From: Mycolicibacterium tusciae JS617
GTDB taxonomy: Bacteria > Actinomycetota > Actinomycetes > Mycobacteriales > Mycobacteriaceae
Reading direction: 5' to 3'
Length of the DNA: 64,000 nucleotides
Assembly (NCBI RefSeq): GCF_000243415.2
Contig: NZ_KI912270.1
Location: 2,356,001 to 2,420,000, forward strand
Positions 1,331 through 26,915 of this stretch are shown here, piece by piece; position 1 is the stretch's first letter; each line of letters starts with the position of its first letter. Both the position numbers and the translations under genes were made by a program. The notes under the pieces were generated by a model. It saw only the letters and a program-made list of their open reading frames with translations, had not been told where the DNA came from and did no database searches.

Positions 1331-2957
1331 ATGGCTTTTCGGGAGGTCAGTGTGAACGAGATCAGGGAAGTGCTGCGGGTGTGGCTGGGGGTCGCCGGGT
1401 TGCCGGCACCGGGTTACCGCACGATTGCCGCGCATTGCGGCGTGGACCGCAAAACGGTGCGCCGCTACGTCGAGGCCGCGCAGGCGGCTGGTTTGCGCCG
1501 TAGCGACAGCGTCGAGGCTGTCGATGACGGGTTGATCGGGGCGGTCGCCGACGCGGTGCGCCCAGTACGCCCGGATGGTCACGGCGCGGCGTGGGAACAG
1601 TTGGTGGGGTTCGAGCAGCAGATCACCGCGTGGGTAGCCGGCGACGGTGAACAACGTCCGTTGACGATCACCAAGATCCACACCCTGCTGGCTCGCCAAG
1701 GCTGCCTGGTGCCGTATCGCACGTTGAACCGATTCGCCGGTGAGCGTTGCGGTTTCGGTGCCAAGGACACCACGGTGCGGGTCACCGATGGGGATCCCGG
1801 GGTGGAATGCCAGATCGATTTCGGCTACCTGGGGATGCTCACCGATGCCGATGATGGGCGGCGCCGCAAGGTGCACGCGTTGATCTTCACCGCCGTCTAC
1901 TCCCGGCACATGTTCGTGTGGCTGTCCTACTCCCAAACCCTGGCGGCGGTGATCGCCGGCTCTGAGGCGGCGTGGGGATTTCTTCGGCGGCGTGTTCGCG
2001 GTGCTGATCCCGGACAACTTGAAGCCGGTGATCGCCGCTGCTGATGCGGTCAACCCGCGATTCACCCAGGGGTGGCTGGACTACGCCAGCCATGTCGGAT
2101 TCCTCACCGACCCGGCCCGCGTGCGCTCTCCGAAGGACAAGCCGCGGGTGGAACGGGCGGTGCAGTACGTGCGCGGAAACTTCTGGGACGGTGAAACATT
2201 CACTAGCCTCGAGGAGGCGCAGCAGGCTGCGACGGCGTGGTGTGTGCGTACTGCCGGCACCCGCATCCACGGCAGCACCTGTGCACGCCCGCTGGAGGTG
2301 TTCACCACCGCCGAGCAGGCCCTGCTGCTGCCGGCGCCGGGTGTCTACGACGTGCCGGTGTTCAAAGCGGTGAAGGTGCACCGCGATTTCCACGCCGAGG
2401 CGGCCAAGGCGCTGTACTCGCTGCCCGAGCACTGGATCGGGCACACCCTCGACGTCCGTGCCGACAGTGAGCTGGTGAAGTTCTATCACCGCGGTGTGCT
2501 GGTGAAAGTCCATCCCCGCCAGCCTCCGGGTGGCCGCAGCACCGACCGCGCCGACTTACCCGAACACAAAGCCGTCTACGCGATGCGGGACCTGGCGGCG
2601 TTGATCGCTACGTGCGCCGCACACGGCCCCAACATCGGGATCTACGCCGAACGCATCCTGGATGACCCGCTGCCCTGGACCCGGATGCGCACCGTTTACC
2701 GGCTCCAAGGCCTGGTCCGCCGCTACGGCGCCGACCGCGTCGAACGGGCGTGCTCACTGTCGCTGGACCTCGATGTCGTCTCGGTCAACAAGATCGCCTC
2801 CATGCTGCAGCGCGGCACCGAGAGCACCGCCCCGCAACTGCCACGAGCAGTCGGACAGGCAACTACCCGTTTCACCCGATGCCCCTCGGAATTCAACACT
2901 CCAACAACATCATTGACCATCGTCACCGACGAAACCACACCGCAGGAGATCCGCTGA
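1331..2957 (+). pseudogene. istA-like transposase, frameshifted
   Basis: This is the IS21 DDE transposase. The start chosen is ATG 1331 (MAFREVSVNEIREVLRVW) behind GGAGG. An N-terminal helix-turn-helix is followed by the first catalytic Asp region (QIDFGYLGML). The frame then breaks near 1979-1985: GGATTTCTTC carries one extra base compared with the expected Gly-Phe-Phe codons. The protein resumes in the next frame at FAVLIPDNLKP (second Asp) and PRVERAVQYVR (Glu), and continues to the stop at 2957. Both halves keep family motifs. The break could be an inactivating insertion, a sequencing error or, less likely, programmed frameshifting. Confidence 0.85.
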
Positions 2958-2958
2958 C

Positions 2959-3756
2959 ATGACGACCCACCGCGCACCCGCCGACCCAGTCGGCGCTGAC
3001 CTGACCCGACTGCTCAAAGCCCTCAAACTCGGTGCTCTGGCCGACACCCTGCCCGAACGGGCCGCCCTGGCCCGCCAGCACAAACTCAGCCACATCGGAT
3101 TCCTCGAAACACTTCTCGCCGACGAGGTATCCCGACGCGAATCCCGTTCAGCTGCCCTACGGGCGACCAAAGCCGGACTCGACCCGACGATGCGCTTCGA
3201 CACCTGGACCGCACAAGACGACCTGCGCTACGACCGCACCCTGCTCGGCGACCTGACCTCGCTACGATTCCTCGACGCCGGACAGTCCGCGATCATCCTC
3301 GGACCCGTCGGCGTAGGCAAGACACATCTAGCAACCGCACTGGGACACATGGCGATTCGACGACGCTACACCGTACAGTTCGCCCGATCCGACAAACTGT
3401 TCACCCGGCTACGCGCCGCCCGCCTCGACAACACCGTCGACGCCGAGATCCGTCGACTAACCGCCATCGACGTCCTCATCATCGACGACTTCGCACTCAG
3501 GCCCCTCGGCGCCACCGAAACCAGCGACTTCTACGAAATCATCGTCGAACGACACCGCGCCAAAACGACCATCGTGACCTCCAACCGAGAACCCGCCGAA
3601 TGGCTGACCATGACCGCCGACACCCTGCTCGCACAATCAGCCATCGACAGACTCACCGCCACCGCCCACACCCTCGTCATCGAAGGACCGTCCTACCGGC
3701 AACGCACCCGACCCGGCCAGCTTGACCCAGACCACCCCGACGAGCATCCTCAATAA
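2959..3756 (+). CDS. IstB-like helper ATPase of IS21
   Basis: This 265-residue protein is the normal length for IstB, the AAA+ helper that assembles on target DNA and directs the IstA transposase. Walker A is GPVGVGKTH and Walker B is VLIIDDF. An Arg-rich region and the TSNREP sensor-like segment follow. It starts 1 base after the istA stop, so the two are translationally coupled. It looks intact even though its partner istA is broken. It sits opposite in orientation to the interrupted primase gene. Confidence 0.93.
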   Translation: MTTHRAPADPVGADLTRLLKALKLGALADTLPERAALARQHKLSHIGFLETLLADEVSRRESRSAALRATKAGLDPTMRFDTWTAQDDLRYDRTLLGDLTSLRFLDAGQSAIILGPVGVGKTHLATALGHMAIRRRYTVQFARSDKLFTRLRAARLDNTVDAEIRRLTAIDVLIIDDFALRPLGATETSDFYEIIVERHRAKTTIVTSNREPAEWLTMTADTLLAQSAIDRLTATAHTLVIEGPSYRQRTRPGQLDPDHPDEHPQ

Positions 3757-5451: not shown

Positions 5452-5679
5452 TCACGCCGGCAGGTCGGTACGGATCTTGCGGTTCTGTCCGATCCACGCC
5501 TCGACATCGCAGCGGCGGTAGTAAACCCGCCGCATCACTTTTACGAAGACAGGTCCGTTTCCCTTGTGCCGCAACGCCGCCCACGTCTGGGCAGTCGTGC
5601 CTTGAAACAGTGTTGACATGGATTCGGCGGGGATCAGCTCGTCTTTCCCGTAATCAGCGAGCTGTCGAACAACGGTCAT
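5452..5679 (-). CDS. Excisionase/helix-turn-helix DNA-binding protein
   Basis: This small protein (75 residues from ATG 5679) has the MerR/Xis-type winged helix pattern: a helix near STLFQGTTAQTWAALRH, a basic wing, then YYRRCDVEAWI. Such proteins bend att DNA and steer the integrase toward excision; phage and plasmid Xis look the same. The start at 5679 has a GAGG-type site 8-9 bases upstream. A longer frame to 5775 would run through the putative operator and is rejected. It is first in the leftward operon with the primase/helicase and divergent from the XRE regulator. Confidence 0.75.
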   Translation of the reverse strand: MTVVRQLADYGKDELIPAESMSTLFQGTTAQTWAALRHKGNGPVFVKVMRRVYYRRCDVEAWIGQNRKIRTDLPA

Positions 5680-5718
5680 CAGCCGTACCTCGCTTTGCCT
5701 GGTGTAATCAAGATGATT

Positions 5719-5798
5719 ACGTACCGTATCCTCTTTGGTGCATCCATTTGAACACGGCAGATCGCAATTGCGCAAGATCGACTTGCTGACGTACCGTA
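5719..5798. promoter_or_regulatory. Divergent xis/XRE control region with a duplicated 10-mer
   Basis: ACGTACCGTA occurs identically at 5719-5728 and 5789-5798, 70 bp apart, in the 125-bp gap between the xis start and the XRE start. The placement fits operators for the XRE repressor that set the lysogeny/excision switch. No footprint evidence is available here. Confidence 0.5.
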
Positions 5799-5804
5799 GT
5801 CAAC

Positions 5805-6269
5805 ATGGGTACACACGCGGTCCAGCGCGGACCAACCGCCGACACTGTCGGCGCCAACGTCAAACGCCTCCGCGAAGAGCGGAATCTTGGGTTGCGTGCC
5901 TTTGCGGGACGCTTGGCCGAGAACGGCCGTCCGCTCACGCATACGGCGCTCGACAAGATCGAGCGGGGCACTCGTCGCGTAGATGTCGATGACCTTATGG
6001 CTCTGTCGGTCGCGCTAGGGGTCTCGCCACTCAGGTTGTTGATGCCCCACACGGCTACCGCCGATGAATACGTGCAGGCGACTTGTCGGCCCAATGAGCC
6101 TGCGCATTTGTTGTGGGATGTTCTGCGCGCCGCACCTTTTCGTGAGACTGACGGCCCTATGAATTACCGTCACTGTCTCGACTCCACGCCACCGTGGGCT
6201 ATCGCAGACCTTGGGATCACTGTCGCGACTGTTGATTTCAATCGAGAGACCGACAATGGCAACGATTGA
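5805..6269 (+). CDS. XRE-family transcriptional regulator (island repressor candidate)
   Basis: A 154-residue protein with an N-terminal HTH_3 domain (about residues 14-75): GANVKRLREERNLGLRAFAG, then ALDKIERGTRRVDVDDLMAL and LGVSP. The C-terminal half has no family I recognise and could serve oligomerisation or sensing. It is divergent from xis/primase and overlaps the integrase start by 14 bases, so integrase and repressor share a transcript. By analogy with Stl/cI-type repressors it probably represses the leftward replication genes, binding the duplicated 10-mer at 5719/5789. Confidence 0.8.
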   Translation: MGTHAVQRGPTADTVGANVKRLREERNLGLRAFAGRLAENGRPLTHTALDKIERGTRRVDVDDLMALSVALGVSPLRLLMPHTATADEYVQATCRPNEPAHLLWDVLRAAPFRETDGPMNYRHCLDSTPPWAIADLGITVATVDFNRETDNGND

Positions 6270-7368
6270 GAAGTACCAGACATCAACGGGTGTAACCCGT
6301 TACATGGTCCGATACCGGACACCACAGCACACGCAAACCAAAAAGCGCGGTTTCACCACGAAGCGAGCCGCCGAGGCGTTCGCCAACACAGTCGAAGTCG
6401 AGAAGCTCACCGGCAATTACGTCGCCCCGTCGCTCGGTCAGGTCACGATGGGCGAGTTGGGTAAAGAATGGCTAGCTCGCCAAGCGCACCATAAAGCGAG
6501 TTGGTCGGCGCGGCTGGAATCGGTATGGCGCGTCCACGTGGAGCCCAAATGGGGCCGCCGTCGCATCGCTGACATTCGTCCGACCGAGGTCCAGAAGTGG
6601 GTAGCCGAATTGAAGCTCTCGCCATCGTCCGTAGCTCACGCCCATACAGTGCTCGCGGGCATCCTTGACGGGGCCGTAGCTGACCGCCGCCTCGGCGCCA
6701 ATCCGGCCAGAGGTGTGAAGCTACCTCGCAAGACGCCGAAAGTTCGTAACTACTTGACTGCCAAGCAAGCGTCGGCACTAGCCGACGAGTCCAAGTATCC
6801 CGACATCGTTCTCCTGTTGGCGACCACCGGCCTGCGGTGGGGAGAGATGGCGGCACTCCGGGTTCGTGATGTCGACCTCGGTCGTAGCCGGATTCGTATC
6901 GAGCGTTCGGCATCGAAGGTGAATTCGAAATCGATCATCGGCACCACCAAGACCCACACGGCCCGTTCGGTGGCGGTCTCAGCGTCGGTGCTCAAGCTTT
7001 TAGCTCCGGCGATGGTCGGCAAGTCCCCCGATGAGCTGTTGTGGAGTCGTGCCGATGGGCGGCCATTGCGACCCCCGACGACGACGCATTGGTTTGGTGC
7101 GGCGATCAAACGCTGCCAAGCGGCGGATGACAAGTTCCCTCGGGTCACCGTCCACGATCTACGGCACACGGCGGCGTCATTGATGATCGCCTCCGGTGCA
7201 AACGTCAAGACAGTGCAGTCCCAGCTTGGGCACAAGACGGCGACGATGACGCTCGATCTGTACGGGCACCTGTTCCCCGACGACCTCGACGACATAGCCA
7301 ACAAAATGGACGACCTGGTATCGGGGTGTGCCCAAAATGTGCCCAAAAAGGAAGCAGGCCAGGGCTAA
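6256..7368 (+). CDS. Tyrosine site-specific integrase
   Basis: A 370-residue phage-type recombinase. The N-terminal arm-binding domain is rich in basic and aromatic residues (VTRYMVRYRTPQHTQTKKRG). A SAM-like core-binding domain follows (about 60-150). The catalytic domain shows Arg in TGLRWGEM, HxxR in HDLRHTAAS, His in QLGHKTA and the nucleophilic Tyr in LDLYGHLF. The start is ATG 6256; an upstream in-frame start at 6211 is possible but lies inside the XRE gene. The stop codon sits in the loop of the hairpin that follows ssrA. It should catalyse integration at the tmRNA 3' end. Confidence 0.95.
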   Translation: MATIEKYQTSTGVTRYMVRYRTPQHTQTKKRGFTTKRAAEAFANTVEVEKLTGNYVAPSLGQVTMGELGKEWLARQAHHKASWSARLESVWRVHVEPKWGRRRIADIRPTEVQKWVAELKLSPSSVAHAHTVLAGILDGAVADRRLGANPARGVKLPRKTPKVRNYLTAKQASALADESKYPDIVLLLATTGLRWGEMAALRVRDVDLGRSRIRIERSASKVNSKSIIGTTKTHTARSVAVSASVLKLLAPAMVGKSPDELLWSRADGRPLRPPTTTHWFGAAIKRCQAADDKFPRVTVHDLRHTAASLMIASGANVKTVQSQLGHKTATMTLDLYGHLFPDDLDDIANKMDDLVSGCAQNVPKKEAGQG

Positions 7369-7385
7369 AACATACCCTGGCCTGC
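7354..7385 (-). terminator. Hairpin terminator for ssrA, formed from the integrase tail
   Basis: The 11-bp perfect arms GCAGGCCAGGG (7354-7364) and CCCTGGCCTGC (7375-7385) flank a 10-base loop. Read on the minus strand it lies 12 bases after the mature tmRNA end and is followed by TTCCTTTTT, a good intrinsic terminator. On the plus strand it also overlaps the last integrase codons and its stop. Confidence 0.75.
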
Positions 7386-7396
7386 ATCGTCTCCAG

Positions 7397-7762
7397 TGGA
7401 GCTGCCGGGAATCGAACCCGGGTCCTACGGCATTCCCTCGAGGCTTCTCCGTGCGCAGTCCGCTATGCCTCTACTCGGATCTCCTGATCACGCGAACAAG
7501 TCAGGATGACGATCCCAGTCGCTGTTTGATGTCCCCGTAGGTCCCGCGACCGAACCTATGGGTTTGTCCCTCTAGATGACGCCAGGGTCCGGGTCGAGGG
7601 CTCTCCCGGTCTGACGGACTCACAGTCGCTTATGCAGCGAGAGCGAAGTCGCGCTGATTGGAATCGGCGCTTAATTGGTTGCAACGACGCTTACGGTGGT
7701 CTCTTGCCTGCACCGGCACGCTTCCCTTGATTCGATGCGCGAAGTCGAAACCGTTCAGCCCC
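7397..7762 (-). ncRNA. ssrA: Transfer-messenger RNA (tmRNA)
   Basis: The 5' end GGGGCTGAACGGTTTCGACT and the 3' T-arm/acceptor GGTTCGATTCCCGGCAGCTCC are diagnostic and pair as a 7-bp acceptor stem. The internal tag frame (7630-7668, minus) encodes ADSNQRDFALAA followed by TAA, close to the mycobacterial proteolysis tag. Length is about 366 nt. The RNA rescues stalled ribosomes together with SmpB, whose gene is at 27807. After the discriminator A the genome reads CTG rather than CCA, so CCA is probably added post-transcriptionally; the integrase-side junction lies immediately beyond. Confidence 0.97.
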
Positions 7763-7769
7763 TCGCACC

Positions 7770-7801
7770 CCTGCCGACTTTCGGCAGGACATTTCATTCT
7801 A
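7770..7801 (-). promoter_or_regulatory. Likely ssrA promoter -10 and 5' leader hairpin
   Basis: A TAGAAT -10-like hexamer lies at 7796-7801 (minus). Between it and the mature tmRNA 5' end is an 8-bp stem (7770-7777 with 7781-7788, 3-base loop), probably part of the precursor removed by RNase P-type processing. No good -35 is visible. Confidence 0.45.
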
Positions 7802-7982
7802 CCTGTGAGCACAACACGCGCCAGCGAATAAATAGTCCCAGGTAGATCACGTAGTCGACGTGCGCCACGACGGGATCTGCCCATGGCCGCGTCGCCGCCT
7901 AAGTGACGGCGTCACGAGCAGTAACGCCCATGAAATCTGGAGGCGACGTCGGTGTATCTGTGTCGACATACGGTGCCGACGT

Positions 7983-9281
7983 ATGAAGCTTCTGACTCAT
8001 CCCGCGATCCAGATCGGCATCGCCGCGATCGGCGGCATCGTGTTCGGCCTGATCGTCGGCGACTGGGCGGCCAATCTGAAGTTCATTGGCGACCTGTTCA
8101 TCCGCCTGATCCAGATGTCGATCGTGCCGCTGGTGATGGCGTCTGTGATCGTGGCGACCGGCTCGATGACCGGCACGGGCACCGGCAGGATCGCCTTCCG
8201 CACGTTCAAATGGATGATCGGATTCTCTGCAGTTGCAGCCGTTCTGGCCTGGCTCCTCAGCTCTCTCATCCAGCCGGGCGCGGGCATGGTGTACGACCTG
8301 CCGCTCGAATCCGGCTTGGAGGAATCCGCGCAGGAGGCGTTGGGTTGGCAGGACACCCTGCGCAACTTCGTCTCCACCAACATCTTTGACGCAATGGCGA
8401 CGGCCACGATGGTGCCCATCATCGTCTTCTCGCTGTTGTTCGGGATCGCGCTGCGGATTCAGATAAACAAGACCGGCGACGACAGGGTGCTGAGCTTCAT
8501 CGACCAAATTCAGCAGATCGTGCTGACGATGATTCGCCTGGTGATGTACATCGCCCCGGTCGGCGTCTTCTGCCTCCTCGCATCGCTCGCAGGCGATGTG
8601 GGCATATCGGTGGTGACCACCGCCCTGAAGTACCTGGGCACGACGCTGATCGGTGTCCTCATCCTTTTCGCGTTGTTCGTCCTGGTCGTCTCAGTGCGCA
8701 CAGGTCTGAGCCCGTTGAAGCTGCCGAGCAAGCTCGTCGAGCAGACCGTCATCGCCATCACCACGACGAGTTCGGCGGTCACGTTCCCCACGGTGCTGAA
8801 GAACACCGTCGAGAAGGTGGGTGTCAGCCAGAAGATCGCCAACTTCACCCTGTCGATCGGGTTGACGATGGGCTCGTACGGAGCCGTCCTGAACTACACG
8901 ATCGTGGTGATGTTCCTGGCGCAGACGGGCGGAATCGACCTGAGCATCGGGCAGATCGCGCTCGGCATGGGGCTCGCGATTCTGCTCAACATGGGGACGA
9001 TCACCGTTCCAGGCGGCTTCCCGGTCGTCGCCACGTTCCTCGCGGCATCGCTCAGCCTTCCCGTCGAGGCGATCGGCCTCCTGATCGCCGTCGACTGGTT
9101 CACCGGCATCATGCGCACGTTCCTCAATGTCAACGGCGACACCTTCGTGGCGATGCTAGTCGCGAATGCTGACGACGAGATCGACCGTGACGTCTACAAC
9201 GGCCCGAAATCGGTGACAGCAGAAGAGCTGAATCTCGACGATTACGGCGATTTGATGGCCCGGGCGGATCAAGCCGACTGA
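7983..9281 (+). CDS. Dicarboxylate/amino-acid:cation symporter (DAACS family)
   Basis: A membrane carrier of about 432 residues of the GltP/DctA type that takes up C4-dicarboxylates or acidic amino acids with Na+ or H+. The signature re-entrant loop is TTTSSAVTFPTVLKN. The second helical hairpin region and a cytoplasmic DDYGDLM-type tail are present, with eight or so hydrophobic segments. ATG 7983 was chosen because the family starts just before the first membrane helix (MKLLTHPAIQ). Upstream in-frame codons are Arg-rich and unlike the family. No strong ribosome site is seen near this ATG. It stands alone between ssrA and the leftward isomerase-like gene. Confidence 0.88.
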   Translation: MKLLTHPAIQIGIAAIGGIVFGLIVGDWAANLKFIGDLFIRLIQMSIVPLVMASVIVATGSMTGTGTGRIAFRTFKWMIGFSAVAAVLAWLLSSLIQPGAGMVYDLPLESGLEESAQEALGWQDTLRNFVSTNIFDAMATATMVPIIVFSLLFGIALRIQINKTGDDRVLSFIDQIQQIVLTMIRLVMYIAPVGVFCLLASLAGDVGISVVTTALKYLGTTLIGVLILFALFVLVVSVRTGLSPLKLPSKLVEQTVIAITTTSSAVTFPTVLKNTVEKVGVSQKIANFTLSIGLTMGSYGAVLNYTIVVMFLAQTGGIDLSIGQIALGMGLAILLNMGTITVPGGFPVVATFLAASLSLPVEAIGLLIAVDWFTGIMRTFLNVNGDTFVAMLVANADDEIDRDVYNGPKSVTAEELNLDDYGDLMARADQAD

Positions 9282-18269: not shown

Positions 18270-18319
18270 CCTGACGCTGCGGCACAGTCAACTCGACGCC
18301 GATGATCCATGATGGAATC

Positions 18320-19072
18320 GTGGCCTGGAGCACCCGCGAACTCGCCGAACTGGCCGGCACCAGCCTGCGCGCGGTACGGCACTACCACCAGGTCGGGCTG
18401 CTCCCCGAACCTGAACGTCACAGCAACGGTTACAAGCAGTACTGCGCCGCGCACCTCGTCCGGCTGGTGCGCATCAAACGGCTCGTCGATCTCGGCTTCT
18501 CCCTCCCCCAGATCGCCGCGATGGGTGAATCCGACGACCACCCCGAACAGGCATTGCGCGAACTCGACGCCGAACTCGCCGAGACGATCGACCGCCTTCA
18601 GCGCGCCCGCGACGAACTCGGTGAGCTGCTGAAGCTCTCGGCGCCCACCGATCTGCCGCCCGAATTCGTCGCGCCCGACACCGCGGCCAAGATGACCGAC
18701 GCCGATCGCGCGCTCGTCGTCGTCTTGAGCCGCGTGCTCGGGCCGCGCGGCATGCAGATCTACGCGGACATGATGCGTGAGACACCCGAGGACCCCGCGG
18801 CGACCGAGCTGGACAACCTGCCCGCCGATGCCGACGAGGCGACACGCCGCGAACTCGCCGAACGGCTCGTCCCCTACATCCGGGCGATCAACGAAGCGCA
18901 CCCCAGCCTCGCGGAGTCCCGGTCGGACGCACCGCGAGGAGAACGTTTCGCGGACAAGGCGATTGGCGCCGCGATGGTCGACCTGTACAACCCTGCTCAG
19001 CTGGATGTGCTACGCCGCGCAGGCGCTATTGTGCGCGACCTCAGTGCGCAAGCAGGTTCACGAGACGGCTGA
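18320..19072 (+). CDS. MerR-family transcriptional regulator
   Basis: About 250 residues. The N-terminal MerR helix-turn-helix and wing (STRELAELAGTSLRAVRHYH, then VGLLPEPERHSNGYKQY) is followed by a coiled helix (about 80-110) and a long C-terminal domain of unknown ligand. GTG 18320 fits the family start; ATG 18302 is also in frame. It is divergent from the S9 peptidase and its 3' end overlaps the convergent FAD oxidoreductase by 32 bases. The target promoter is probably the shared short intergenic region. Confidence 0.85.
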   Translation: MAWSTRELAELAGTSLRAVRHYHQVGLLPEPERHSNGYKQYCAAHLVRLVRIKRLVDLGFSLPQIAAMGESDDHPEQALRELDAELAETIDRLQRARDELGELLKLSAPTDLPPEFVAPDTAAKMTDADRALVVVLSRVLGPRGMQIYADMMRETPEDPAATELDNLPADADEATRRELAERLVPYIRAINEAHPSLAESRSDAPRGERFADKAIGAAMVDLYNPAQLDVLRRAGAIVRDLSAQAGSRDG

Positions 19073-20057
19073 ACACGCTAGGAAGTGCCTGCGCGGCAGG
19101 CACAATGGCCGAGCGCACCGAACTATGCGCGCTCGCCGCGAGCAGGCCTGCGGTCAATATCCGATAGCGCCGCGTAAGTCTGCGCCACTGCCGGTCGTAG
19201 TCATCGGGGCAGTCGCGCACGACGCAATCCGCCAGCAGCTCAGCGGCGCCGAAAGCCAACCCCATGCCTTCACCGGTGAGCGCGTCGATGTAGCCGGCGG
19301 CATCGCCGACCAACAGCACCCGGCCCGCCGCCCGGCCCCGAACGTTCTGCCGCAGCGGTCCCGCGGCCCGGTCCTGGCCGTGGGTGTGACCGGCGACCCT
19401 GTCGCGCAGCTCGCCGAACGACTCGAAGTGGCGGTCGAACCCACCGCGCCCAGCACTCAGGATCGCGATCCCGACGCAATCGTCGGCCACGGGCGTCACA
19501 TACGCCTCGGCGTCGCGCGACCAGTGCACCTCGACCGAATTCGTCCACGGCGCGATCTCGTAGTGCCTGCGGATCCCCCACCGACGCGCACCCGTCGTCG
19601 CCGCGGACAATCCCATTGCCTTGCGGATCGGTGAATGCAGGCCGTCTGCCGCCGCCAGATATCTCGCCTCGAATCCCCCGGCGCACACCGACTCCGCGCC
19701 CGCAGTGATGGCGCCCAGCTCACCGTGCACGAGCTTCACCCCGGCCGACTCGGCGGCCCGCCACAGCGCGGCGTGCAGCACTGTCCTACGCACACCGCGT
19801 CCAACGCCCGCCTGGAAGGGCGCATCGACCCTGTGGCGGCCGTCGACGTAACTGATCCCGTGCAGCGGGTGTCCCACCGCCGTCACACCGAGGCGGTCCA
19901 GATGCGCGACGGTGTGGGGCATCATGCCTTCCCCACATGCCTTGTCCAACACCCCCGCTCGTCGTTCGACAACAGCGACGTCGAGTCCGGCCCGGGCGCC
20001 ATAGAGCGCCGTGGCCAGGCCCGCAGGGCCGCCGCCCGCCACCAGCAGGTCGATCAT
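19041..20057 (-). CDS. FAD-dependent oxidoreductase/hydroxylase (srsC-like position)
   Basis: About 338 residues. N-terminal Rossmann dinucleotide motif LLVAGGGPAGLATALYGARAG, and the second FAD motif GRVLLVGDAAGYIDALTGEG. Family is geranylgeranyl reductase/PHBH-type flavoprotein. ATG 20057 overlaps the methyltransferase stop as ATGA. It is the last gene of the type III PKS operon. In Streptomyces srsABC and Actinoplanes agq clusters a flavoprotein at this place hydroxylates the alkylphenol to a quinol/quinone, and I infer the same role here. Confidence 0.85.
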   Translation of the reverse strand: MIDLLVAGGGPAGLATALYGARAGLDVAVVERRAGVLDKACGEGMMPHTVAHLDRLGVTAVGHPLHGISYVDGRHRVDAPFQAGVGRGVRRTVLHAALWRAAESAGVKLVHGELGAITAGAESVCAGGFEARYLAAADGLHSPIRKAMGLSAATTGARRWGIRRHYEIAPWTNSVEVHWSRDAEAYVTPVADDCVGIAILSAGRGGFDRHFESFGELRDRVAGHTHGQDRAAGPLRQNVRGRAAGRVLLVGDAAGYIDALTGEGMGLAFGAAELLADCVVRDCPDDYDRQWRRLTRRYRILTAGLLAASAHSSVRSAIVPAAQALPSVFSRLVNLLAH

Positions 20058-20563
20058 CTCAGGCTCGCCAGTGCGCCGTTCTCGACCTTGATGCGGGTGC
20101 GCAGCAGCTCCGCGTTCAGCGCGGTGAACACCAGGGCGGTGATCCAAGCCGAATGCACCAATGGCAATGCGATTCCCTCGAGCACGACCGCGACGTAGTT
20201 GGGGTGGGGTATCAGCCGGTACGGCCCGCCGGTCACCCGCGGTGCCCCGGGGACGACGATGACGCGCGTGTTCCACTGGTGCCCCAGCGTGCTGATGCAC
20301 CACCAGCGCAAGACCTGCGCTGCCAGCACCACCGCCAGCATCGGCCAGCCCAGCGCAGGAATGAACGGCCGCGCGAACGCAAACACCTCAACCAAGCACC
20401 CCGCCAGCAGGCCGATGTGCAGTACCACCATGACCGGATAGTGACCGGCGCCGAATTCGACTCCGCCGCGGTTTCGACTCCACGCCCAGTTGCGTCTGGA
20501 GACAACCAGTTCAGCCAACCGCTCGACGGCGATTACCGCGATCAACAGGACATACCAGAACAT
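20054..20563 (-). CDS. ICMT-like membrane O-methyltransferase (srsB-like position)
   Basis: About 169 residues with four or five hydrophobic helices. The isoprenylcysteine carboxyl methyltransferase-family signature is GHQWNTRVIVVPGAPRVTGG, then PYRLIPHPNYVAVVLEG (SAM-binding). Starts near the PKS stop: ATG 20563, or GTG 20569 overlapping as GTGA. The stop overlaps the next start. Bacterial homologues next to type III PKS genes methylate phenolic hydroxyls of alkylresorcinol-type lipids in the membrane. That role is inferred from context. Confidence 0.85.
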   Translation of the reverse strand: MFWYVLLIAVIAVERLAELVVSRRNWAWSRNRGGVEFGAGHYPVMVVLHIGLLAGCLVEVFAFARPFIPALGWPMLAVVLAAQVLRWWCISTLGHQWNTRVIVVPGAPRVTGGPYRLIPHPNYVAVVLEGIALPLVHSAWITALVFTALNAELLRTRIKVENGALASLR

Positions 20564-20565
20564 GG

Positions 20566-21624
20566 TCACCGCCACCGCAGCAGCACGAGTTCAGAGCAGA
20601 ATCCCGGCCCCATAGCCATGAGTAAGCCGGGGCTACCCGCGGGCGGGCGCTTGGCCATCGTGTCGCGCAGCACGTGCAGCACTGAGGCTGACGACAAGTT
20701 GCCGACCTCGGCCAGTGATCGCCAGGTCAGTTCCAGCGCATCGTCGGCCAGACCCAACGTGGCGGTGATCGCCTCGATCACCTTCGGGCCGCCGGGATGA
20801 CTCACCCACGTCCCGATATCGTCGATCGTGAGGCCATGGGCCGCAAGGAATTCGGTGACATCGTCGGCCAGATAGCGCTCGACCACCACAGGCACGTCTG
20901 GCGACAGCACCAGCCGGAAGCCACTGGCTCCCACATCCCAGCCCATGGTGCGCAATGAGTCCGGATACAGGTGGCTGCGCGAATCGATCACTTCGGGGCC
21001 GGACGCCCCGATCTGAGCGGCTTTGCGATCGCCGACCGCGACGACGGCTGCGGCGCCGTCTCCAAAGAGAGCGCTACCCACCAGCGTCGCCATCGAAGGC
21101 TCGGATTTTGGGGTGAGCGAGCACAGTTCCACTGCGAGCAGCACCGCGACACCATCAGGGTCGCCGCGCAGATAGTCGTGGAGACGTGCCGTACCCGCCG
21201 CGCCCGCCACGCATCCCAGCCCGAACAGCGGCACACGGCGCACGTCCGGCCGTAGCCCGATCCGACCGGCGATCCGCGCGTCGACGGTCGGCACCGCGAG
21301 TCCGGTGACCGTCGTCGTCACGAGTAGGTCGACATCGGACGGTTCCAGCCCCGCGTCTGCGAGCGCTCCGGTGATTGCGGCGGATCCGAGTTCGACGGCG
21401 TGCTCGATGAATACGTCATTGGCGGCGCCGAAATCGGTGAGCCCGGCGTAATCCTCCAGTGGGAGCACCATGTGCCGACTGTCGACCTTCGCACTGTCGT
21501 GTACTGCACGGATGAAGTCACCATGTTCTGAGAACCCTGGTATCGCCAGCAACGCCTCGGTCACTTCGGCTTGCGTATAGCGGCGTTCTGGTAATTCTCC
21601 GCGAACGGCTGCAATGACAGTCAT
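20566..21624 (-). CDS. Type III polyketide synthase (chalcone/alkylresorcinol synthase type)
   Basis: 352 residues, the normal size. The catalytic triad is visible: Cys138 in [13 protein letters not shown], His276 in [10 protein letters not shown] and Asn309 in VGNLSSASV. The C-terminal GPG-type loop is [13 protein letters not shown]. Such enzymes extend an acyl-CoA starter with malonyl-CoA and cyclise it to alkylpyrones or alkylresorcinols. The start is ATG with GGGAGA upstream. It follows an MMPL gene by 46 bases and couples to a methyltransferase and a flavoprotein. It is probably a phenolic-lipid synthase like SrsA/AgqA, not the pyrone-type Pks18. Confidence 0.93.
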
Positions 21625-21670
21625 GTCTCACTCTCCCTTTTCCTGGACACGCATTCCGAGGCCCGTTGGT

Positions 21671-23944
21671 TCACTGCGAGCCGATGATCGAAGCCGACCG
21701 CGGCGTCTGCTTCGAAGTGAGGCCGTCTTCGATGCCGAAGCGGTCATGAATCTTGGACATCCATCTGGGTGCCCACCAGTTCCACTCGCCCATGGCATGC
21801 ATGAACACCGGGAGCAGCACCATCCGCACCAGGGTGGCGTCGACCAGGATCGCCAATGTCAGGCCGAGGCCGAACATCCGCATGAACGACACCTGGGCGG
21901 CGATCAGCGCGGCGAATGAGATGCACATGACGACGGCGGCCGCTGTCACTACCCGGCCCGTGCGCGCAATCCCCAGCGCGACGCTCTCGTCGCTGTTCGA
22001 CGACTTCAGCCGGAACTCACGGATACGGGAGACCAGGAAGACCTCGTAGTCCATCGACAAACCGAAAGCGATGCAGAACAACAACACCGGAATGTTGGCG
22101 ACGAGGACTCCGGTCGCAGTCGTTCCGAGTGCGCCCAGGTGCCCTTCCTGGAAGATCCATACCATCGCGCCAAAGGCTGCGGAAAGCGACAGCACGTTGA
22201 GCACCAACGCTTTCAGCGGGATCACCACGCTGCCGGTGAGCAGGAACAGCACCGCGAACATGATCACCGCGATGAGCCCGAGCACGACCGGCAACGCAGA
22301 TGTGATCGCGTCGACGCTGTCCCGGTTTACCTGCGCGGTGCCGGCGAAGAGCACATCCCGGCCGCCGGGCCCCCCGACTGCGTGGAGAGCGTCGAGTTGG
22401 GCTTCCGATGATTCGGAGAACAGCGGGGCGGTGCTGTGCACGGTCAGATGCGCGCTTCCGTCGGCCACCCGGGCGGGCGTCACCCCTGCCACGTCGGCGA
22501 CGTTGGCCAGGCTCCTTGCATATCCGTCGATCTCCGCAGGCATCAGCCCACCGGCATCGGGCACCACAACGCTGACAGCGGTGGTCGAGTCGTCGGAGAA
22601 CTGGGCGCGCAGGTCATCACCGACCTGGTGCGCCGATGCTGACTCGGGTAGCACCCGGTCGTCGGGGAAGCCCCATTTCACGGAAAGGAACGGGGCACCG
22701 AGCAGCACGAGCAGGACGACGACGGCCGATCCGGCGGGCAGCGCGTGTCGCATGACGGCTTTGGTCCAGCGATAGAGGGGCTGCTGCTCGACCGCACGCG
22801 CGACGGGTTCGGGCCGTTTCAGTACCCGGCGGGCCAGCCGGCGAATATCGAAGGCCTGCAATCGATCACCCAACATGACGAGCGCCGCCGGAGTCACGAA
22901 CAGCGCGGCGAGTGCGGCGAGTGCGACGGTCGCCACTCCCGCGTAGGCGAACGACTTGAGGAAAGCCATTGGGAATACGATCATCACGGCCATCGACAGG
23001 GCCACGATGGTCGCCGAGAACACGACGGTGCGCCCTGCCGTCGCCATGGTCGTAACCAGCGCGTCCTCGGGCTCGGCGCCGTCCGCCAGCTCGTCGCGGT
23101 ATCGGCTGACGATCAGCAGCGTGTAGTCGATCGCGAGAGCCAAACCCATTGCAGCGCTGAGGTTCAGCGCGAAGATAGAAACATCCGCAAAATTGGTCAC
23201 ACCACGGAGCACTGCAAGCGCCCCCAGGATCGCCATGCCGCCGACGGCAAGCGGGATCGCCGCGGCCAACGCGCCGCCGAACACCCAGACCAGGACGGCG
23301 AAGCTGATGGGAATCGCCAATGACTCCATGACCAGCAGGTCGCGCTGCGATTGTTCGGTGATCTCGACATTCATCATCGCTTCGCCGCCCGCGCGTACCG
23401 TCACACCGTCTCGGTCGCGAACGAGCCCGTCGGACAGGGACTTTGCGTACTCCTGGGTCTTGCTCTCGTCGCCGGCGATACCTATGACGATCAGCCCCGA
23501 GTTGCCGTCCTTGCTGACCAGCGCGGTGCGCTCGGGCTCGGGCGCGGTCCACAACGACGTCACCGACGCGACGTGCGGCGAGCGTGTCAGTTCGTCGACC
23601 ATCTCGGTCCCTACTGCGCGCGCGGCAGCACCGTCGGCCCCGTCCGGCGCGCTGACGGTGATCACCATCGCGACATCACCGACGCCGAACTTGTCTGTCA
23701 GCAGTTCGGACGCCTTAGCCGATTCCGAGGAGGGGTCTTCGAGACCGCAGGCACACAGGCTCTTTGCGACCGGCACGCCGAAGATGCCCGCCGCCACCGC
23801 CACGAGCGCGGCGAGCACGAGCATCCGCCGGGGGGCGGCGCTTGCCAGATGGGCGATGCGTTGCAATATTCCACCCTTCGAAGGGGAGGCACCCACGCCC
23901 GGCCCAGTCGGGATTGCCTGCTCTGTCCCTATGACGACAACCAC
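21671..23944 (-). CDS. MMPL-family (RND) transporter
   Basis: 757 residues in two repeats, each a first helix, a periplasmic loop and a five- to six-helix bundle. The proton-relay Asp-Tyr pairs are in AIDYTLLIVSRYRDE (about residue 273) and SMDYEVFLVSRIRE (about 630). Length and single-gene form resemble the shorter MmpL11/MmpL13-like or YdfJ-type exporters rather than the large MmpL3. It is first gene of the operon with the type III PKS, so it probably exports the product. GTG 23944 is the assumed start. The operators lie at 23970-24049. Confidence 0.93.
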   Translation of the reverse strand: MVVVIGTEQAIPTGPGVGASPSKGGILQRIAHLASAAPRRMLVLAALVAVAAGIFGVPVAKSLCACGLEDPSSESAKASELLTDKFGVGDVAMVITVSAPDGADGAAARAVGTEMVDELTRSPHVASVTSLWTAPEPERTALVSKDGNSGLIVIGIAGDESKTQEYAKSLSDGLVRDRDGVTVRAGGEAMMNVEITEQSQRDLLVMESLAIPISFAVLVWVFGGALAAAIPLAVGGMAILGALAVLRGVTNFADVSIFALNLSAAMGLALAIDYTLLIVSRYRDELADGAEPEDALVTTMATAGRTVVFSATIVALSMAVMIVFPMAFLKSFAYAGVATVALAALAALFVTPAALVMLGDRLQAFDIRRLARRVLKRPEPVARAVEQQPLYRWTKAVMRHALPAGSAVVVLLVLLGAPFLSVKWGFPDDRVLPESASAHQVGDDLRAQFSDDSTTAVSVVVPDAGGLMPAEIDGYARSLANVADVAGVTPARVADGSAHLTVHSTAPLFSESSEAQLDALHAVGGPGGRDVLFAGTAQVNRDSVDAITSALPVVLGLIAVIMFAVLFLLTGSVVIPLKALVLNVLSLSAAFGAMVWIFQEGHLGALGTTATGVLVANIPVLLFCIAFGLSMDYEVFLVSRIREFRLKSSNSDESVALGIARTGRVVTAAAVVMCISFAALIAAQVSFMRMFGLGLTLAILVDATLVRMVLLPVFMHAMGEWNWWAPRWMSKIHDRFGIEDGLTSKQTPRSASIIGSQ

Positions 23945-23969
23945 AGGATCACCCGCCCCATCTGCTATT

Positions 23970-24049
23970 TCAACAGCTGTTGAGATTTGTCATCCGCTGA
24001 TGACTTAATACTTTAGGGCCATGTGTTCATGAAGTCAACAGCTGATGAC
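23970..24049. promoter_or_regulatory. Three related palindromes, candidate TetR operators
   Basis: TCAACAGCTGTTGA (23970-23983) is perfect. GTCATCCGCTGATGAC (23989-24004) has perfect 6-bp arms. GTCAACAGCTGATGAC (24034-24049) has a single arm mismatch. All share GTCA(A/T)C...G(T/A)TGAC and lie in the 118-bp gap between the MMPL operon and the divergent TetR gene. They probably control both. Confidence 0.75.
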
Positions 24050-24062
24050 ATAGCATTTGGCA

Positions 24063-24626
24063 ATGGCTGAACCGAGACCACGCAACGCCGCCAAGACTCG
24101 GGCCGACATCTTGGCCGCCGCGCGCCGCCGATTCGCGACGGACGGGTACGGCCCCACCACGCTGCGCGCCATCGCAGCCGACGTCGGTGTCGATGCTGCT
24201 CTGGTGAGTCGCTACTTCGGCAGCAAGGAGGACCTGTTCGCGACAGCGACCGAGTTCAAGATCGACCTACCGGATCTGGGCGGCGCGGAGGCGAAAGACA
24301 TCGCGGCCATGTTGTTGCCACGGTATTTCGCGGTGTGGGAGGACGACCACACCTTCTTGGCGCTCTTGCGCACGGCGGGAACCAGCCGAGTCGCCGCCGA
24401 CACGATCAATCAGACCTTGGCCACGAATGTCGCGCCGACATTGCGCGCTATCACTCCGGACAACGACAGTGTGCGGATCGCGCTACTGGACGCATTCGTC
24501 ATCGGCCTGGCGATGACCCGAAAGGTACTCGCCAATCCGCCGATCGCGAGCCTGAGTCGCGAAGAGCTCAGCAGGTGGGCCGGACCCGTCTTTGCCCAAT
24601 TGCTCGTCGGCTCGTCGCCGCCGTAG
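24063..24626 (+). CDS. TetR-family repressor, divergent from the PKS/MMPL operon
   Basis: 187 residues. TetR HTH near residues 10-55 (RADILAAARRRFATDGYGPT, VGVDAALVSRYFGSKEDLF). The C-terminal ligand domain is of the QacR-like/TetR_C type. ATG 24063 was chosen over TTG 24057. It faces the MMPL-PKS-methyltransferase-flavoprotein operon across a gap with three palindromes, so it is probably its local repressor and autoregulates. The ligand may be the phenolic lipid or a precursor. Confidence 0.92.
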   Translation: MAEPRPRNAAKTRADILAAARRRFATDGYGPTTLRAIAADVGVDAALVSRYFGSKEDLFATATEFKIDLPDLGGAEAKDIAAMLLPRYFAVWEDDHTFLALLRTAGTSRVAADTINQTLATNVAPTLRAITPDNDSVRIALLDAFVIGLAMTRKVLANPPIASLSREELSRWAGPVFAQLLVGSSPP

Positions 24627-24638
24627 CGTCGTCCCCCA

Positions 24639-26915
24639 TCACGTCAGCGCGCGCGGGATGGCGAGAGGGTCAGCCGGCGTCAAACGGAGTTCGGATATCG
24701 GCACGGGGCGCCCGAACAGGTGCCCCTGGGCCAGGCGGCCACCGGCGCGGTACACCGCGTCGGACTGCGCGACAGACTCAATGCCTTCAGCGATCACCGT
24801 CAAACCCAGCTCGCTGCACAGTCCGATCACCGAGCGATACAGCGTCAGGTCGCGCGCCGGATCGGCGGTTGCCAGACCGCGGTCCAGCTTGACGATCTGC
24901 ACCGGCAGGGCGTGCAGATACAGCAGCGAGTTGAACCCCGCGCCGAAATCGTCCAGCGCAACCTTGACTCCGAGCGCATTCAGCCGGTTGATCTGCGCCG
25001 CGGCGTGGGCGACGTCGACGATCGGCAGCGTCTCGGTGATCTCCACGACAAGCCGGCTCGGCGGGAGGTGATAGCGCGTCAGCGCCCCGTGCACCTGTTG
25101 CTCGAAACCGGGGTTACCCAGCCGCCCTGCACCGATGTTCACGTGGATATCGACGTCCAGGCCCGCCTTTCGGATATCGCGACACGCCAAATCGAGCACC
25201 AGCGCATCGAGGTCGGCCCCGAGCCCGGCCGCCTCCGCCACAGAGACGAATGTCTCGGGTGACATCTCGACTCCGTTCGGCGCGGTCCATCTCGCCAGGG
25301 CCTCGACCGCGACCGGCTTGCCGTCGGGCAGCTGCACCACGACTTGGTAGACGAGGCGGAAGCCTGGCGGAGCGCCTCCGGCGGCTTCGCGAAGCGCGGT
25401 CGGGAAATCGATGGCCAGCCCGGAGGACGGTTGATAGACCACGGCGGTGTCCTTACCGACCCGCTTACCCGCGTACATCGAGATGTCCGCCTGCCGAAGC
25501 AGATCGTCGGACGTCTGGGCCACGCCATCGGTTCCGGGCCTGACGAGTCCCATACTGGCCTTGACCCGCACCGAGGAACCGTGCAGAGCGAACGGATCCC
25601 GCAGCGCGACGCGCAGACGCTCGGCCGCGACCTCCAGCTGTTCGGGTTCACCGTCGATCAATATCGCAAACTCGTCGCCGCCGATCCGTGCCAGCGTGTC
25701 GGTGTCGCGCACGCATCGTTTGAGGCGCTGCCCGATGGAGACGAGCAATTCGTCACCCCCCGCATGCCCGAACCGGTCGTTGACCTCTTTGAAGTCATCG
25801 AGGTCGATGAAGATCAGCACGAACCCGCCGTCCCGCATCGCCTCGTCGAGCCGTTGGGTGAACAGAATCCGGTTCGGGAGGCCGGTCAGTGCGTCGTGGT
25901 GCAGCTGATAAGCCAGCCTGTGCTGCGCCCGGTACAACCGCTGCGTCAGCATTTGCTGAGCGCGCATCGCAACCACCTGGCGGACGGCCACCAGGAAGAC
26001 CATCACCACCGCCGCGACGATGGCGAACGGATCCAGCGGACGTCCCATGAGCACATGGAACGCGAACAAAAGTGCGATCCCGAGGAACCCACAGTAGGGC
26101 AGTATCAACCGTGCCAAGTCGCCGCCACGGTTCGCGCGAGCTTCGTTCCGGGGCGAGGGCTCGAGCATCGCGAACGCGATCATCAGCGGGCCGAGGATGA
26201 ACCCGATGCCGCCCCACAGATCCCCGTTGTCAAGGTCCGTGGATCGCAGGTAACTGACCACCCTGTCGGCCGCGGCCATGGTTACGAGGCCGCCTGCCAT
26301 GAACAGATAGTTCGTCCGAGATGGGCTGCTCGGATCGTAGATCATCGCGATGACCACCACCGCCGCCACGAGAAGCACCTCGGCCAACACGAACCCCAAC
26401 TCGACGGCCGTTACGCCTGAGCGGGGAAGCGATGCCGTCGAACCGGTGTTGAAACCGCCCATGGCCGCCAGGATGAGGAACGACATGCCTGCGACGACCC
26501 CGTCGAGGACATTGACGACGAACGGGGCCCGTAACACACCCTCGGTCTGTCCGGTCACCTCGCCGGAACGGACAAGCAGGGCCACCGAGCCCACAGCGAA
26601 CGCCGGAGCCCCCAGGTAGGCGACGCTGGCTGCGAGGGGCGCCACCCCCGCGGAATCGGTCCACCACAGAACCTGACCCACGAGCCAGCACACAATCGCC
26701 GCCACATAGGCCAGTCGCCACCAGCGCGCAGAGCCACTTACCCGCCGCGCCACCACGATTCCGCAGGCCACCGCGCCGAGGCCGGCGGCCAGCTGCAACG
26801 CCGCTTCGCCCCGATGGGCCGCCGAATGACCCCACAGTCCCATGGCATTTATCACCGCCAGCGCCGCGACGAACGCGGCGAGGTATACGAGGGGCCGTCT
26901 GGCGTTGGGTACCAC
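24639..26915 (-). CDS. Membrane GGDEF-EAL cyclic-di-GMP protein
   Basis: 758 residues. The N-terminal part has about ten hydrophobic segments (MASE-like sensor), then a GGDEF domain with the intact active-site motif RIGGDEFAIL, then an EAL domain with VEALARW, EITET, DDFGAGFNSL and EGIES metal/catalytic blocks. Both diguanylate cyclase and phosphodiesterase sites look intact, as in the bifunctional mycobacterial enzymes such as MSDGC-1. GTG 26915 has a GAGGAGG site. It runs opposite to the TetR gene and ends 12 bases from it. Confidence 0.93.
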   Translation of the reverse strand: MVPNARRPLVYLAAFVAALAVINAMGLWGHSAAHRGEAALQLAAGLGAVACGIVVARRVSGSARWWRLAYVAAIVCWLVGQVLWWTDSAGVAPLAASVAYLGAPAFAVGSVALLVRSGEVTGQTEGVLRAPFVVNVLDGVVAGMSFLILAAMGGFNTGSTASLPRSGVTAVELGFVLAEVLLVAAVVVIAMIYDPSSPSRTNYLFMAGGLVTMAAADRVVSYLRSTDLDNGDLWGGIGFILGPLMIAFAMLEPSPRNEARANRGGDLARLILPYCGFLGIALLFAFHVLMGRPLDPFAIVAAVVMVFLVAVRQVVAMRAQQMLTQRLYRAQHRLAYQLHHDALTGLPNRILFTQRLDEAMRDGGFVLIFIDLDDFKEVNDRFGHAGGDELLVSIGQRLKRCVRDTDTLARIGGDEFAILIDGEPEQLEVAAERLRVALRDPFALHGSSVRVKASMGLVRPGTDGVAQTSDDLLRQADISMYAGKRVGKDTAVVYQPSSGLAIDFPTALREAAGGAPPGFRLVYQVVVQLPDGKPVAVEALARWTAPNGVEMSPETFVSVAEAAGLGADLDALVLDLACRDIRKAGLDVDIHVNIGAGRLGNPGFEQQVHGALTRYHLPPSRLVVEITETLPIVDVAHAAAQINRLNALGVKVALDDFGAGFNSLLYLHALPVQIVKLDRGLATADPARDLTLYRSVIGLCSELGLTVIAEGIESVAQSDAVYRAGGRLAQGHLFGRPVPISELRLTPADPLAIPRALT

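Follow-up and report, generated by a model that had tools for sequence, protein, structure and literature searches.

Why would an operon of the kind known for making a respiratory quinone come with a transporter of its own? The question is raised by a five-gene locus of Mycolicibacterium tusciae JS617, which lies in a 64,000-nucleotide stretch of contig NZ_KI912270.1 (positions 2,356,001 to 2,420,000; hereafter the window). On the minus strand, in the order of transcription, are genes for an MMPL-family transporter, a type III polyketide synthase (PKS), an ICMT-type methyltransferase and an oxidoreductase that uses flavin adenine dinucleotide (FAD; the flavoprotein), while a TetR gene diverges from them on the plus strand (Table 1). 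Pfam names all five proteins (Chal_sti_synt_N/C, ICMT, FAD_binding_3, MMPL, and TetR_N with TetR_C_16). Gene content, gene order, catalytic residues, operator-like sites and their conservation can all be read from the DNA, and they lead us to propose, with a probability of roughly 70%, that the locus is a polyketide-quinone operon of the pkqABC/srsABC type, joined by a transporter of the MMPL family dedicated to it and by a local repressor, TetR.

The genes are closely spaced. Re-deriving the open reading frames and coordinates gave those described in an earlier note on this DNA, including the 46 bp between the MMPL stop and the PKS start. The note had also reported overlapping stops along the operon, which is correct for the methyltransferase and flavoprotein genes (ATGA) but does not extend to the PKS and methyltransferase genes unless the latter starts at the upstream GTG at 20575, as the ATG at 20563 leaves a gap of 2 nt. 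For the flavoprotein, 20057 is the most likely start, in preference to the longest-frame start at 20303. The short gaps, together with a predicted promoter in front of the MMPL gene, suggest that the MMPL, PKS, ICMT and flavoprotein genes are co-transcribed.

The enzyme core

The enzymes are of a known kind, because their PKS-ICMT-flavoprotein layout matches that of srsABC and pkqABC operons, and the same three genes are known in mycobacteria as pkqABC. According to the passages of the literature covered here, the M. smegmatis pkqA-C operon makes polyketide quinones and is homologous to the Streptomyces srs operon (PMC9927152, PMC5916927, PMC8730385), with MSMEG_0808 as its PKS (PMC8730385). 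The same passages describe polyketide quinones as electron carriers in M. smegmatis and Streptomyces MNU77 (PMC9927152 sections 3, 8 and 11), and such quinones have been proposed as alternate electron carriers in actinobacteria at low oxygen. As in the window, the M. smegmatis operon runs from PKS to methyltransferase to oxidoreductase, and in both species the PKS has a Trp at the position of ArsB residue 281 and is the only type III PKS of the genome, among 7.3 Mb here and as published for M. smegmatis (PMC5916927).

Using the PKS as a query on a class-wide sample, we found matches in 68 of 197 genomes, 10 of which belong to the window's genus. Loci from 17 of the remaining 58 genomes all contained ICMT and FAD homologues (17/17, with a divergent FAD gene in one), and Streptomyces sp. 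NBC_01237 encodes PKS, ICMT and FAD proteins with 61, 67 and 52% identity to those of the window; the srsABC-like gene set that the earlier note had recognized is thus borne out in other actinomycetes. These srsABC-type clusters keep the PKS-ICMT-flavoprotein order. We take srsABC of Streptomyces griseus and the sco7671-type clusters to be names for the cluster type of PMC9927152. Unlike the window, the NBC_01237 locus (L225) has no MMPL gene and a divergent UbiA-family gene instead. In the non-mycobacterial clusters L213 (5154-5960) and L225 (5013-5882), this gene encodes a UbiA-family prenyltransferase and runs divergently to the PKS gene; the named neighbours in the window include no such gene.

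Cys138, His276 and Asn309, listed earlier as an intact catalytic triad, proved correct to the residue and are conserved without exception in all 121 aligned PKS sequences, the window's own included. The best match among solved structures is M. tuberculosis Pks11, at 535 bits, compared with 133 bits for Pks18. We therefore ruled out a Pks18-type alkylpyrone synthase; grouping with Pks18, which the earlier note had considered, was not seen. Trp229 pairs with the Pks11 Trp inside a common MGWDVG motif, and a Trp at this position (MMAR_2474 W230, ArsB W281) has been tied to resorcinol formation in the sections covered (PMC5916927 section 8; PMC9927152 section 8). The position holds Trp in 110 of the 121 sequences; the other 11 have Tyr or Phe there, and every one of these comes from a locus that lacks ICMT and FAD genes. 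Identity to the presumed M. smegmatis relatives, which were compared as genomic loci and not as sequences named PkqA or SrsA, is 70-71%, and one of them (L150) falls in the same mycobacterial clade (support 100).

Pks11 and Pks10 of M. tuberculosis and its relatives (MMAR_2474/MMAR_2470 type) belong to the same PKS family, with Pks11 nested in the mycobacterial clade. Unlike the window, however, loci that group with Pks11 are without ICMT, flavoprotein and MMPL genes, and published genes of the Pks11/Pks10 type flank type I PKS genes in the section covered (PMC5916927 section 5), whereas the PKS neighbours here are MMPL, ICMT and FAD genes. A second PKS-ICMT lineage is present in Mycobacterium (L219, L220 and L221; 53-58% PKS identity) and groups with non-mycobacterial PKS; L220 also carries a flavoprotein. 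Two ORFs of about 290 aa directly upstream of PKS genes (L074:3613-4488 and L038:5020-5901) have no Pfam match and may be miscalled or belong to an uncharacterized family.

The conservation of the core in mycobacteria was assessed in 120 loci, made up of the best 80 of 416 relatives by similarity to the window PKS and 40 from a ranked genus sample. Both ICMT and FAD genes are present in 101 of these. The flavoprotein has the GxGxxG, DG and GD motifs and the PHBH-type fold of class A hydroxylases, and is probably a ring hydroxylase. As its fold is of the PHBH/halogenase type, a halogenase yielding a halogenated phenolic lipid was also weighed. We take the hallmarks of FAD-dependent halogenases to be a WxWxIP motif and a catalytic Lys at about residue 75. 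The flavoprotein contains no WxWxIP, its only Lys residues are K39, K108 and K146, none of them near residue 75, and the sole Lys in an invariant column is K39, within DKACGEG. On this evidence we rejected a halogenase, which is barely credible.

The linked MMPL transporter

The transporter matches PF03176 in two stretches (263 bits), and its closest solved structure is MmpL3 (318 bits). The DY pairs of MmpL3 form its proton relay; the window protein shares the transporter core and has both pairs. As an ortholog of MmpL3, the trehalose monomycolate exporter, it was rejected, since its score of 379.3 bits is far below the NCBIfam equivalog cut-off of 1400.

To describe linkage, 'no MMPL' denotes none within the upstream DNA examined (at least 2.3 kb). 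Among the 101 loci with ICMT and FAD genes, an MMPL gene lies directly upstream in 56 and farther off (about 1 to 1.7 kb) in 9, with none in 33 and too little sequence in 3. The other 19 loci, which lack the ICMT+FAD pair, differ: 16 have no MMPL and 3 have one, and two of those 3 stop at a contig edge. Because some species occur in both samples, we counted distinct PKS sequences for the core loci, and an MMPL gene accompanies 62 of the 92 (53 directly upstream, 9 farther off). In a second check, on the 30 highest-ranked places of the genus sample (one of them the window), MMPL lies no more than 141 nt upstream in 21, is a partial match at 344 nt in 1 and is missing from 8. The partial match (L091, genome G143) is possibly a decaying copy. 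Another locus, L074, has an O-methyltransferase gene (Methyltransf_3; 2934-3686, minus strand) between MMPL and PKS genes that are about 1.7 kb apart. Pairwise distances over 57 loci correlate at r = 0.845 for MMPL and PKS, 0.893 for PKS and FAD, and 0.752 for PKS and ICMT.

Outside the mycobacteria the linkage was not found: none of the 17 core loci of other actinomycetes (13 kb each) has an MMPL gene, and three of four non-mycobacterial genomes searched whole have more distant MMPLs elsewhere (37-44%). The M. smegmatis operon also differs from the window. It is published as three genes, with no MMPL in the passages covered from papers describing it, whereas the window has an MMPL gene before the PKS gene and, before that, a divergent TetR gene and three operator-like sites. 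Two genomes, G069 and G529, contain an MmpL3 piece 98% (not 100%) identical to PDB chain 6n40, which is presumably M. smegmatis MmpL3. No MMPL gene adjoins their PKS-ICMT-FAD genes (L150 and L244) within the DNA examined there, and in L150 two M28-peptidase genes take its place. If these genomes are sisters of M. smegmatis, M. smegmatis probably lacks the linked transporter. We found no description of an MMPL tied to a polyketide-quinone or alkylresorcinol cluster in the literature passages covered, a comparison that did not extend to Anand et al. 2015, reportedly the original pkqABC paper.

The genome has a second, unlinked MMPL gene (L172, C4:380000-396000, at 5466-9071) that is 67% identical to the first and has TetR and methyltransferase genes beside it. 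Likewise, 16 of 16 other mycobacterial genomes searched have at least one copy away from the PKS locus (60-70% identical), and among 17 unlinked copies retrieved, a TetR gene of the same type is nearby in 15 and a methyltransferase gene in 14. This recurrent context would suit a drug-efflux pair of MMPL and TetR that has come to lie beside the PKS operon by chance. However, linked and unlinked transporters separate in the tree (76 rows; trees were quick searches, with branch support from the Shimodaira-Hasegawa-like approximate likelihood ratio test, SH-aLRT): a short dividing branch with an SH-aLRT of 95 sets the 17 unlinked copies apart from the 58 PKS-linked ones and one further sequence. 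A smaller first tree had put the unlinked MMPL of this genome inside the PKS-linked group, a placement that was dropped because adding the 17 unlinked copies separated the two kinds. The split lends moderate support to a dedicated, PKS-linked MMPL subfamily, as judged from sequence comparison.

The further sequence is L239 (G079:C1:6790700-6799700), the only unlinked MMPL that falls with the linked ones. Placing all 58 linked rows in a single clade costs only 0.02 log units (approximately unbiased test, p = 0.367). The PKS locus of the same genome (L161) is without an adjoining MMPL gene, and the L239 gene may have moved away from it. In another genome (G025:C1:773025-783193; L220, L238) an unlinked-type MMPL gene lies about 7 kb from a second-lineage PKS gene, by chance or through a looser link.

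The TetR regulator and its putative operators

The three palindromes that the earlier note had placed beside the divergent TetR gene stand out from shuffled sequence and recur in relatives. They have the form TCA-N8-TGA, spaced by 45 and 20 bp within the 118 bp that separate the TetR and MMPL starts (23945-24062), and the predicted promoter has its -35 box inside the first site (O1) and its -10 box ending right before the second (O2). Allowing up to one mismatch, the pattern has six strand-wise matches in the window, all at the three sites (shuffles: mean 0.08, largest 2); exact matches genome-wide are the three sites and one other place. A wider TetR regulon was rejected, with 21 strand-wise genome matches at up to one mismatch versus 14 for a reversed control.

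Divergent TetR orthologs with 74-87% identity lie close to the operon in four relatives (L002, L023, L037 and L135). In each of the four, three sites recur at intervals of 45 bp (44 in L037) and 20 bp, with different sequence between them; TTGAC is conserved within O1, and in L023 the first site is weaker. None of 2000 single-base shuffles reached the best-three operator score for any of the five promoters, although both pattern and score were drawn from the sites themselves, so that both shuffle controls flatter them. Recurrence at fixed spacing gives independent and better support for these candidate operators. A scan of 400 bp found the triple in 3 of 140 loci; the L037 promoter lies farther upstream, and its triple was seen by separate comparison. 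The triple was not seen at loci with less similar regulators, namely those with an in-line TetR of about 60% identity before MMPL (L013, L017, L021 and L026) and L005, with a divergent TetR of 61% identity 1.7 kb away.

At two of these loci, L023 and L037, the PKS operon contains no MMPL gene and is itself preceded by the TetR ortholog and operators, which indicates that the regulator belongs to the PKS operon and not merely to the pump. TetR thus most likely controls the PKS operon, judging from this arrangement, and the same two loci argue against a chance drug-efflux neighbour, which we consider highly improbable.

Table 1. Genes and predicted regulatory elements of the locus, in window positions.
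Feature	Position	Strand	Remarks
MMPL-family RND transporter, 757 aa, MmpL3-like core	21671..23944	-	DY pairs D273-Y274, D632-Y633
Type III polyketide synthase, 352 aa	20566..21624	-	C138, H276, N309, W229
ICMT-family membrane methyltransferase, PkqB/SrsB position	20054..20563	-	Pfam ICMT; GTG 20575 = alternative start
FAD-dependent oxidoreductase, PHBH/halogenase-type fold, PkqC/SrsC position	19041..20057	-	FAD_binding_3; probable ring hydroxylase
TetR-family regulator (TetR_N + TetR_C_16)	24063..24626	+	TTG 24057 = alternative start
Putative operator O1, GTCAACAGCTGATGAC	24034..24049	.	Overlaps -35 box of operon promoter
Putative operator O2, GTCATCCGCTGATGAC	23989..24004	.	Just downstream of -10 box
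Putative operator O3, TCAACAGCTGTTGA	23970..23983	.	Between promoter and MMPL start
Predicted sigma-70-type promoter, TTGACT-17-TAAAGT	24010..24038	-	1 found vs shuffle mean 0.1

Neighbouring genes

The outer neighbours are MerR and S9 peptidase genes on one side and, beyond TetR, a GGDEF-EAL gene on the other. The MerR-family gene (18302-19072) is convergent with the flavoprotein gene, their 3' ends overlapping by 32 bp (19041-19072); among the 120 loci compared, this neighbour was seen solely in M. neglectum (L002). There are 12 bp between the end of the GGDEF-EAL gene (24639-26915, minus strand) and that of the TetR gene.

Discussion

What the enzymes use and make, how the operon is repressed, which ligand relieves this, and what the transporter carries and in which direction are inferred as follows. 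The PKS would extend a fatty-acyl-CoA starter with malonyl-CoA, perhaps also methylmalonyl-CoA, to a long-chain alkylresorcinol, which the membrane ICMT-type enzyme would O-methylate. The flavoprotein would then hydroxylate the ring to a hydroquinone that oxidizes to an alkyl-benzoquinone, and the MMPL protein, driven by the proton motive force, would move the phenolic or quinone lipid out of the inner membrane in the direction of the periplasm or the outer mycomembrane. TetR, bound to its three operators over the promoter, would keep the operon silent, to be released by a ligand that is perhaps a lipid or quinone of the pathway. This is close to the system of making, methylating, oxidizing and exporting a phenolic lipid that the earlier note had envisaged, a reading supported by the distance of the PKS from Pks18 and by the co-conservation of MMPL, with product and export as its presumptive parts.

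Several observations weigh against this proposal, beginning with the product. Trp is also kept by 8 of the 19 loci that lack the ICMT+FAD pair, including five from the Pks11 group, and so does not by itself predict the pathway. Nor does homology fix the PKS product, as Pks11, the closest solved relative, was deposited as an alpha-pyrone synthase and the related MMAR_2474 yielded both pyrones and resorcinols in vitro in the passages covered (PMC5916927). Together with the lipid exporter MmpL3 as the transporter's nearest solved structure, the Pks11 deposit would fit an end product that is a methylated alkylpyrone or a resorcinol methyl ether, exported by MMPL as an envelope lipid, in place of a quinone. 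Trp229, as found in resorcinol formers, speaks against this alternative, as does the regular presence beside ICMT of a hydroxylase-fold flavoprotein that a pyrone lipid would not need, and we regard it as improbable.

The linkage of the transporter is also imperfect. No MMPL was found for 30 of the 92 distinct core loci, and two loci (L101 and L036) each lack one of the ICMT and FAD genes, which shows that the gene set is not obligate; of the co-conservation of MMPL and PKS that the earlier note had named as a test, association with the core in the majority of loci stands and a strict requirement does not. The PKS tree demands at least 10 changes in MMPL presence, so the transporter comes and goes, and the correlated distances could equally be expected from shared descent and linkage.

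Finally, the MMPL gene fits awkwardly with the published respiratory role, because an inner-membrane respiratory quinone needs no exporter, and this makes the transporter the real puzzle of the locus and its chief interest. One alternative is that the polyketide quinone is retained in the inner membrane and serves there as an alternate carrier in respiration, with the MMPL protein setting its distribution between leaflets or clearing excess or oxidized product, and not acting as a true exporter. The electron-carrier role described for these quinones (PMC9927152, in the sections covered) agrees with this, and in the core loci without MMPL the pathway may run without it. However, that a separate MMPL group is kept with the core in most loci suggests that it regularly acts on the product, and we think the inner-membrane alternative unlikely, though less so than a pyrone or resorcinol ether.

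A polyketide-quinone operon with a dedicated transporter and local repressor remains our preferred reading, in which the new part is a distinct MMPL group linked to the core, along with a conserved array of TetR operators. More tentatively, we suggest that in many mycobacteria the dedicated MMPL subfamily carries the polyketide quinone, or the resorcinol from which it is made, as far as the outer mycomembrane or into the medium. There the lipid might serve as an envelope component or an extracellular redox shuttle beyond its role as a respiratory carrier; the M. smegmatis lineage, without the transporter, would then show only part of the function. If 62 of 92 sampled mycobacterial clusters do carry a dedicated lipid exporter that is missing from the lineage of the laboratory model, the cellular place and job of the product would need rethinking, and a defined cargo would become testable for an uncharacterized MMPL group. 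Through the conserved three-operator promoter, the conditions that turn the pathway on can be approached directly.

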